64,000 nt of DNA from Gilvimarinus agarilyticus (GTDB lineage Bacteria > Pseudomonadota > Gammaproteobacteria > Pseudomonadales > Cellvibrionaceae). Both the position numbers and the translations under genes were made by a program. Shown piece by piece: positions 40,836-44,353 of the stretch. The first letter of the stretch is position 1. Each line of letters begins with the position of its first letter. The notes under the pieces were generated by a model, which was not told where the DNA came from, did no database searches, and was given only the letters and a program-made list of their open reading frames with translations. The DNA lies in assembly GCF_000832015.1 (NCBI RefSeq), contig NZ_JXCJ01000001.1, positions 1,355,864-1,419,863 of the forward strand. Reading direction: 5' to 3'.

Positions 40836-42308
<1,473 letters not shown>

Positions 42309-42327
42309 TTCCGCCCGGATATTGCTC

Positions 42328-42361
42328 GCGCGGCATTTAGGGGCCACCCTTTGAGCCGCGC
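42328..42361 (+). promoter_or_regulatory. Hairpin in the mreB-mreC gap
   Basis: GCGCGGC (42328-42334) pairs perfectly with GCCGCGC (42355-42361) around a 20-base loop, 20 bp after the mreB stop and about 36 bp before the mreC start. There is no T-run. It could lower readthrough or protect the mreB message 3' end, allowing more MreB than MreC; this is inference. Confidence 0.4.
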
Positions 42362-42396
42362 CTATCGACGAGTGCGTTGCGCCAGGAGATGCCACC

Positions 42397-43227
42397 ATTA
42401 AAACTTTGTTCACTAAAGGCCCTGCTGTCAGCTTTCGCTTTGCCTTTTTTGGCCTGATTGCTCTGGCGTTGGTGTTGATTAGCCTCTACACCGACTGGCT
42501 CGACCCGGTGCGACGTGAGCTCAGCACGTTGGCCAAGCCGTTTTATCAAATTACCGATGTACCCCGCCGTATCAGTGACTGGAGCGATGAAACCTTCGTC
42601 TCGCGCGGCGAGTTGGTGCAAGAGAAAGAGCGGCTTGCCTCCGAGCTGTTAATTCATCAGCGCAAACTACAGCAAATGGCCGCCCTGGCCGCCGAAAATG
42701 TCCGCCTGCGACAGTTGCTTAATGCCACCGAAATCCTCGAAGACGATGTTTTAGTGGCCGAGTTAATCGGTGTATCCCCTAACCCGCTCAGTCATACTCT
42801 GGTGCTTAACCGCGGTAGCGACGATGGCGTTTCGGTGGGGCAGCCGGTGCTGGACGCAAAAGGTCTGATGGGGCAAGTCATTGAGGTGGGGCCCGACAGT
42901 GCGCGGGTGTTGTTGCTTACTGACCCCTCCCACGCCCTGCCGGTGCAGGTTAATCGCAACGGTATACGTACCATTGCTGAAGGCACCGGCTCCCTGGATA
43001 GCCTGACGCTGCGCCATGTGTCGAACACCACGGATATTCGGGTAGGAGACTTGTTGGTCAGTTCGGGCTTGGGCCAACGTTTTCCGGCGGGCTATCCGGT
43101 TGCCGTGGTAGAGCACATTGAGCGAGACCCCGGCCAGCCTTTTGCGCAAATCACCGCACGGCCTATGGCTCAAATGGACCGCACACGCAACGTGTTGCTG
43201 GTGTTTGAAGCTCCTCAGGTTGATTAG
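42397..43227 (+). CDS. mreC: Rod-shape-determining protein MreC (probable ATT start)
   Basis: Bitopic elongasome protein whose periplasmic beta domains activate PBP2/RodA. The frame has no ATG or GTG near the expected start. ATT at 42397 is proposed: AGGAG at 42384-42388 lies 8 bp upstream, and the resulting N-terminus (M)KTLFTKGPAVSFRF matches the KxLFxKGP beginning usual for pseudomonad MreC. The first conventional alternative, TTG at 42406, is 17 bp from that ribosome site. The protein (276 aa) has a membrane segment at about 15-33, a coiled coil at about 65-100 and the MreC core with LVLNRGSDDGVSVGQPV. mreD follows after 6 bp. Confidence 0.92.
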   Translation: MKTLFTKGPAVSFRFAFFGLIALALVLISLYTDWLDPVRRELSTLAKPFYQITDVPRRISDWSDETFVSRGELVQEKERLASELLIHQRKLQQMAALAAENVRLRQLLNATEILEDDVLVAELIGVSPNPLSHTLVLNRGSDDGVSVGQPVLDAKGLMGQVIEVGPDSARVLLLTDPSHALPVQVNRNGIRTIAEGTGSLDSLTLRHVSNTTDIRVGDLLVSSGLGQRFPAGYPVAVVEHIERDPGQPFAQITARPMAQMDRTRNVLLVFEAPQVD

Positions 43228-43233
43228 CGCACT

Positions 43234-43731
43234 ATGCTGCCCGATCGCGCATCCGTTTATATTTTAGTCGTGCTAACTGTGTTTGTGGCGATGCTGCTGG
43301 ATGTTTATCCGCTGGCACTGGAGTATCGGATTTTTCGGCCGCAATTTACGCTGCTGGTGGTGATTTACTGGGTTTATATTCTACCCCAAAGCAGCAGTAT
43401 GGCGCTGTTGCTGCTACTGGGCTTATTGCAGGATGTGACGGTGGGCGCCCCGCTGGGGCAGCATCCGCTGATGCTAATAATGGTGGGGTATTTGTGCCTG
43501 CGCAGTTATCGCCGCGTGCGTCACTTTGCTCGCTGGCAGGAGTCGCTCTGGGTGCTGCTGCTAGTGGCAAGTGCTCAACTGTTAGCCTATTGGGTACAGG
43601 CGCTTCACGGGCGGCAAATGGACGGCTTTGAGTTTTTGCTGCCGGCGGTTGCCAGCGCCTGCTGCTGGCCACTGCTGGCGATGGTGTTTGACCGGCTGCG
43701 GCGTCATTACCGCATCGCCCGCCAGGTGTAG
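43234..43731 (+). CDS. mreD: Rod-shape-determining protein MreD
   Basis: Integral membrane partner of MreC in the elongasome. The 165 residues form about five hydrophobic segments (about 8-30, 38-60, 70-88, 98-120, 133-155) with the family motif RPQFTLLVVIYWV near residue 35 and LGLLQDVTVGAPLGQHPL in the middle. Starts 6 bp after mreC. Confidence 0.95.
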   Translation: MLPDRASVYILVVLTVFVAMLLDVYPLALEYRIFRPQFTLLVVIYWVYILPQSSSMALLLLLGLLQDVTVGAPLGQHPLMLIMVGYLCLRSYRRVRHFARWQESLWVLLLVASAQLLAYWVQALHGRQMDGFEFLLPAVASACCWPLLAMVFDRLRRHYRIARQV

Positions 43732-43747
43732 CTGAGCGAATATCACT

Positions 43748-44353
43748 ATGAGCCTTGCCTCCCCTCAATTGTTTCTCGCGTCCGGCTCGCCAAGGCGCGC
43801 CGAGCTGTTGCGTCAAATTGGCGTAGATTTTACCCGGGTGGTCATCGATGTGCCCGAGGTGCCCGCGCCTCAGGAGTCCCCTGAGGATTACGTTACTCGC
43901 CTGGCCGGCAGCAAAGCCGAGGCGGGCTGGCGTGCCCTGGAGTCAGCTAGTGGTAATCACGTGGTGCTCGGGGCCGATACTCTCGGCGTGCTCGATGGCC
44001 AGTTACTGGAGAAACCTAAGAGCCAGGTACACGCCGCCCAATTGTTGCGGGCGATGTCCGGTCGCAGTCACACGGTGATGACGGCCGTTGCTTTAACCAA
44101 CGGCACAGATACAGATGTCTCATTGGTACGCACCGAGGTGTGGTTTCGCGAGCTGAGCGACACAGAAATCGCCCAATACTGGCATACCGGCGAGCCCGCC
44201 GATAAAGCCGGCGGTTATGGCATTCAGGGGTTGGGGGCGGTGTTTGTGCGCGAAATTCGCGGTAGCTACTCTAATGTGGTGGGTTTGCCGCTAGAGACGA
44301 CAGCACCCCTGTTGACCAAGTACAATGTACCCTTTTGGCTTGTCCGGGAGTGA
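43748..44353 (+). CDS. maf: Maf family nucleoside triphosphate pyrophosphatase (YhdE type)
   Basis: Hydrolyses dTTP/UTP and modified nucleotides; linked to septum inhibition in Bacillus. The 201 residues open with LFLASGSPRRAELL (phosphate-binding SxSPRR) and include VLGADTLG (metal-binding Asp), EKPKSQVHAAQLLRAMSGRSH and DKAGGYGIQGLGAVFV, which are Maf signatures. The position after mreD and before rng is the conserved site of the YhdE branch. The ribosome site before the ATG is weak. Confidence 0.95.
   Translation: MSLASPQLFLASGSPRRAELLRQIGVDFTRVVIDVPEVPAPQESPEDYVTRLAGSKAEAGWRALESASGNHVVLGADTLGVLDGQLLEKPKSQVHAAQLLRAMSGRSHTVMTAVALTNGTDTDVSLVRTEVWFRELSDTEIAQYWHTGEPADKAGGYGIQGLGAVFVREIRGSYSNVVGLPLETTAPLLTKYNVPFWLVRE

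Follow-up and report, generated by a model that had tools for sequence, protein, structure and literature searches.

Probable starts of mreC at AUU in Gilvimarinus agarilyticus and at AUU, AUC or AUA in most sampled Gammaproteobacteria

Described non-NTG starts and the mreC locus

AUU starts are described for very few genes: the available part of PMC9410913 counts only infC and pcnB in E. coli. Like mreC in this study, infC combines a non-NTG start, AUU or AUC, with a strong Shine-Dalgarno sequence, and its second codon is mostly Lys or Asn. infC encodes IF3 and can therefore autoregulate; MreC, a membrane scaffold, could be at most a downstream target of IF3. Moreover, mreC also uses AUA (24 of 201 genes starting with ATT, ATC or ATA), whereas infC is described with AUU and AUC. 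E. coli pcnB resembles mreC in having an AUU start and a product that is not an initiation factor (same part of PMC9410913). In the lineage studied here pcnB, also tried as a second positive control, differs from mreC: the sequence Met-Leu-Lys-Arg-Leu in 14 of 20 loci read (out of 38 genomes) points to an ATG start in those 14, among which is the locus of the window genome (L281). A third case is sigR of Streptomyces, which like mreC has a noncanonical start that is misannotated in genomes; according to the excerpt of PMC5472188 its GTC start is repressed by IF3 experimentally, and this helps to keep SigR below its operon partner RsrA. sigR differs from mreC in its start codon, in its phylum and in encoding a sigma factor, and repression of mreC by IF3 would be an analogy to it. 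Finally, enterobacterial mreC belongs to the same protein family, with E. coli MreC aligning gaplessly from residue 2 onwards, but the enterobacterial gene starts with ATG, and in Klebsiella and Proteus hardly any ribosome site, or none, is visible. Among the open-licence papers listed by our searches we saw none that reports a non-NTG start of mreC, though one may exist outside this set. A preprint reportedly deals with bacterial genes that prefer non-AUG starts.

The window, i.e. the whole stretch of 64,000 nucleotides of G. agarilyticus DNA that was analysed, holds mreC between mreB and mreD, in the order mreB, mreC, mreD (Table 1). Its MreC scores 191.5 bits against TIGR00219 (mreC), with a curated cut-off of 92.75, and among the MreC proteins found the closest, at 92% identity, comes from Gilvimarinus polysaccharolyticus. 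mreB lies directly upstream, and both genes presumably belong to the same operon. A preliminary description of this DNA had proposed that mreC starts at the ATT, and its coordinates for AGGAG, for the ATT at 8 nt and for a TTG at 17 nt are all correct. It was also right that the mreC frame has no ATG or GTG near its 5' end: the 14 codons that follow the upstream TGA contain no ATG, GTG or TTG, and the open frame counts 290 codons with this extension and 276 from the ATT.

Table 1. Features at the 5' end of mreC and its neighbours (window positions)
Feature	Position	Strand	Remarks
mreB	41274..42308	+	ATG start; control gene
In-frame TGA 5' of mreC	42352..42354	+	nearest upstream stop in the mreC frame
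AGGAG, Shine-Dalgarno core of mreC	42384..42388	+	window sequence; GGAG similarly placed in 8/8 genus genomes
Out-of-frame ATG adjoining AGGAG	42389..42391	+	0 nt from AGGAG; 22-codon frame ending at TGA
mreC coding sequence	42397..43227	+	276 aa from ATT, stop included; TIGR00219 match
ATT, putative mreC start codon	42397..42399	+	8 nt from AGGAG; would be read as fMet; based on cross-genome comparison
AAA (Lys), second codon of mreC	42400..42402	+	AAA/AAG in 179/201 ATT/ATC/ATA genomes
TTG, rejected standard start	42406..42408	+	17 nt from AGGAG; column not conserved
mreD	43234..43731	+	ATG start

The only ATG nearby lies, as also described before, in another frame, touches AGGAG and meets a stop after 22 codons. 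One could imagine that this ATG gives rise to a leader peptide of 22 codons or to a frameshift into mreC, given that it does adjoin the ribosome site; but a spacing of 0 nt from AGGAG, and the absence of this ATG from the 16 nt 5' of the ATT in the other seven genomes of the genus, leave this idea with almost no credit. Folding of 42309-42450 gave nothing unusual (z 0.33), a search of 41000-43800 against Rfam returned zero matches, and a promoter scan of 40900-42600 found no promoter-like site, where shuffled sequences average 1.2. A terminator scan of the same 40900-42600 region found one terminator-like site, within mreB, with an average of 2.5 in shuffles. This site, a hairpin with a T-rich tail at 42188-42204 inside the end of mreB, is no commoner than in shuffled sequence.

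Start codons of mreC across the class

Searches for mreC succeeded in 57 of 58 relatives, in 191 of 194 genomes from the order, in 171 of 185 from the class and in 101 of 120 from the phylum. We read the 5' end of the gene in 286 class genomes, all different, using 106 loci from the search results and 180 fetched stretches. A start was assigned in 273 of these, in 235 by rule and in 38 by hand, the latter as the nearest plausible codon; the 13 left without an assigned start are L227, L133, L134, L137, L154, L182, L193, L196, L207, L211, L212, L367 and L373. The first pass of the rule gave ATT, ATC or ATA in 197 of 238 starts; manual changes moved two loci (L167 and L187) to a nearby ATG, set one aside (L212) and added seven others. 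The rule admits only NTG and ATT, ATC or ATA, and hence the absence of other start codons does not follow from it alone; one GTT (L145) came to light by hand.

Read in this way, mreC starts with ATT, ATC or ATA in 201 of the 273 assigned genomes (286 examined). By rank these are 33 of 35 genomes within the family, 93 of 109 in the remainder of the order and 75 of 129 in the remainder of the class. The rule-assigned starts taken alone give 194 of 235 (33/35, 86/96 and 75/104, respectively). In the draw made evenly over the class the count is 75 of 119 assigned starts (129 read). The share found for the class may be too high, since genomes with poor N-terminal matches are under-sampled; matches for which there was no fetched stretch, including class-draw matches beginning beyond residue 19, were left out of the reading. 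The remaining assigned starts comprise 52 ATG, 16 GTG, 3 TTG and 1 GTT. A strict pattern, which demands an ATT, ATC or ATA start plus the N-terminal motif with an exact Gly-Pro and thus misses variants, is present, counted as raw matches, in 44 of 100 family genomes, two of them with a second match. The preliminary description had taken the ATT for a peculiarity of one gene. Its choice of start is strongly supported by the comparison, and the feature is found widely across the class, in the forms ATC and ATA as well.

Among the rule-assigned ATT, ATC and ATA starts 184 of 194 fall into the identical ungapped column and the others lie at most three codons off. The column of the window's ATT holds ATT or ATC in 20 of the 25 named loci; the genera are Gilvimarinus, Marinimicrobium, Exilibacterium, Microbulbifer and Zooshikella, together with two metagenome-assembled Gammaproteobacteria. 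Three further loci (L020, L022 and L024) have ATC one codon upstream, giving one extra residue, and two (L019 and L026) have ATG at the mreC start. ATG stands in the same column as the window's ATT in Klebsiella, Proteus and Aeromonas. The start triplets ATT, ATC and ATA occur in proportions of 0.46/0.42/0.12 versus 0.46/0.45/0.09 for ordinary Ile codons of the same genes. The third base thus matches background Ile usage and gives no sign of selection.

Two individual readings are recorded here for their own sake. In L145 (genome G408) the column reads GTT AAA CTC after cagggag, possibly a GTT start, with an ATC one codon upstream. In L137 (G395) the mreC frame shows a TAA stop followed by ATC TAC CGT AAA AAA GCC.

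The same comparison bears on the TTG three codons downstream, at which translation could begin if the ATT were only leader sequence. TTG is a standard bacterial start, and beginning there would drop just three residues and leave the hydrophobic stretch of the protein intact. However, an alignment of close relatives, suggested in the preliminary description, speaks for the ATT: all eight genomes of the genus (G000-G007) have ATT as the start triplet, preceded by a similarly placed GGAG, whereas the TTG column reads TTG, CTG, CTT, CTG, CTT, CTT, CTG and CTG, and in the 201 ATT, ATC and ATA genomes it contains ATG, GTG or TTG in only eight. The TTG is also far from AGGAG (17 nt), and a start at this codon would lose the conserved Lys of codon 2, which matches E. 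coli MreC. We therefore regard initiation at the TTG as very improbable.

Ribosome sites and the N-terminus of the protein

Several lines of evidence point to initiation at the ATT, ATC or ATA codon itself. We calculated Shine-Dalgarno energies as pairing with the 3' end of 16S upstream of the codon and called a site strong at -5 kcal/mol or better. The median energy is -7.2 kcal/mol at ATT, ATC and ATA starts, -2.95 in ATG genes and -2.2 at internal Ile codons. Strong sites precede 184 of 201 of these starts and, in the same genes, 321 of 2432 internal Ile codons; the site is weak in 17 of the 201 genes. ATG genes of mreC have a strong site in only 19 of 52 cases (p = 2e-13, with genomes that are related and not independent; p = 6e-10 for the same contrast in rule-assigned rows only), and GTG genes are intermediate (9 of 16). 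We also compared 35 edge-disjoint pairs, weakly supported branches included, in which an ATT, ATC or ATA gene is set against one with ATG, GTG or TTG: the former has the stronger site in about 26 and the weaker in about 7, and p has a median of 2e-4 and ranges from 1e-5 to 4e-3. When only ATG genes serve for comparison, the 27 pairs divide into about 21 stronger and about 6 weaker. Restriction to well-supported branches leaves 9 pairs, too few to bear out this association of the ribosome site.

Upstream of the codon there is little room for another start. In the stretches read, an in-frame stop is visible 5' of the codon in 198 of the 201 genes, and between stop and codon no ATG, GTG or TTG occurs in 173 of the 198; in the other 25 such a codon exists, in three of them as ATG. 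The stop lies at most 10 codons away in 122 of 201 genes and in one (L112) immediately 5' of the codon. Downstream, the first standard start comes at a median of 16 codons and has a median site energy of -1.7. It might still be argued that the ATT is an ordinary internal Ile codon and that the protein really begins nearer the 5' end, from a codon not recognised as a start or by another route, since the start codons occur in the proportions of internal Ile and the frame of the window is open for 14 codons 5' of the ATT. Such a start would have to contend with in-frame stops at varied and often short distances, with a ribosome site that is properly spaced for the ATT, ATC or ATA codon, and with the ATG found in that very column in Klebsiella, Proteus and Aeromonas. 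We consider it very improbable, a little more so than a start at the TTG.

The protein agrees with a start at the ATT. Residues 2-272 of the window's MreC align without gaps to residues 2-272 of 7eft_A, a chain of 367 residues, and the chain in PDB 7eft begins K-P-I-F-S-R-G-P-S, which is the N-terminus of E. coli MreC; the conserved Lys at codon 2 agrees with it. On the basis of both the cross-genome comparison and this alignment, translation of mreC very likely starts at AUU 42397, as had been proposed.

Pseudomonas aeruginosa provides an example of how such a start can be annotated. In the 1131-base record CP123788.1 (L213), the single record on which this finding rests, mreC reads taggagcggatc ATC AAA CCG with the ATC at 219, while the annotated start is a GTG at 267, i.e. 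48 nt or 16 codons downstream of the ATC. The five mutated residues of P. aeruginosa MreC given in the available part of PMC8137920 fit the GTG numbering, with five of five in agreement at an offset of 16, and none of the other offsets from 0 to 29 reached four of five. The same excerpt describes MreC constructs without the first 14 residues, which are regarded as cytoplasmic residues plus the membrane region. The most hydrophobic stretch of 19 residues comprises residues 10-28, both in P. aeruginosa MreC counted from the ATC and in the MreC of the window, and hence translation from residue 17 would remove part of it. The annotated P. aeruginosa MreC would thus miss 16 N-terminal residues, which comprise its cytoplasmic tail and the beginning of the hydrophobic stretch, and gene finders limited to ATG, GTG and TTG can repeat such a misannotation of mreC.

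IF3 and the output of MreC

Two control genes were read alongside mreC, infC as a positive and mreB as a negative control. For infC, which has a match in 38 genomes, 30 loci were read, and the best-placed start is ATT or ATC in 28 of them; site energies at these starts run from -5.5 to -9.5. The exceptions are one GTG (L260) and one TTG (L261), and a few of these 28 loci contain in addition an in-frame standard codon whose site is weaker. The infC of the window genome (L253, G000:C1:3323907-3324413, minus strand) reads ATC AAA after taggag, a layout like that of mreC. For mreB an ATG start was read in 97 of 104 loci, and the median energy of the site is -3.9. Of the seven remaining reads one went past the end of its stretch; of the last six, five have a Met within two residues and so look like misreadings by the script.

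From these observations a likely course of events can be outlined. The strong AGGAG site would place the ribosome at AUU 42397, where the initiator tRNA would read AUU as formyl-methionine, and the same start, as AUU, AUC or AUA, would be used by the majority of the sampled Gammaproteobacteria, so that mreC would join the genes with starts of the infC type. As these codons pair imperfectly with the initiator tRNA, IF3 should discriminate against them, and in combination with the strong ribosome site the output of MreC would be set by both, as at infC. With mreB starting at AUG just upstream, the likely effect would be that MreC is kept below MreB. We give a probability of roughly 0.8 to the reading that AUU 42397 is the start of mreC, with the strong site and a codon against which IF3 discriminates acting as a set-point for output. 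The position of the start, its conservation, its ribosome site and the absence of a usable standard start can be taken as established by sequence comparison. By analogy with the described systems we infer the discrimination by IF3 at mreC, the ratio of MreC to MreB and the purpose of the arrangement. That MreC is limited relative to MreB through a start of the infC or pcnB type, as the preliminary description suggested, is plausible.

The comparative data are explained equally well by active control and by a plain set-point composed of a strong site and a weak codon. It might be, then, that AUU, AUC or AUA is the true start but has no regulatory role, that the strong site merely offsets a poor codon, by drift or as a fixed low set-point, and that IF3 never varies enough to matter. 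In favour of this, the third base tracks background Ile usage, and parsimony on the tree requires 35 to 37 changes between ATT, ATC or ATA and standard starts; the weaker sites of ATG genes would be expected if only net output were selected. However, the start persists over 201 genomes although a single base change would restore ATG, the neighbouring mreB shows no such drift, and infC, with the same layout, is regulated through its start codon in E. coli (excerpt of PMC5472188). Weighing these points, we give the absence of regulation somewhat less than an even chance.

Alternatively, mreC might be a second gene beside infC that is gated by IF3 throughout the class. The amount of IF3 and its fidelity activity would then set the ratio of MreC to MreB by way of a start retained over much of the Gammaproteobacteria, and wall elongation and cell width would reflect the condition of the translation machinery; lineages such as the enterobacteria, with their ATG and weak site, would stand outside this circuit. 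We put this forward tentatively, as a possibility that falls short of even odds. The weights given to our main reading, to a start without regulation and to gating by IF3 overlap, as all of them accept the start codon; the use of IF3 for control is the sole divide between the last two.

In conclusion, an mreC start at AUU, AUC or AUA in most of the sampled genomes of the class would greatly lengthen the list of genes known to begin with AUU. A core gene of wall synthesis with such a start would offer a testable link from the fidelity of initiation to cell shape, and the rare start of mreC may tie the output of a wall-building protein to the control of ribosome accuracy.
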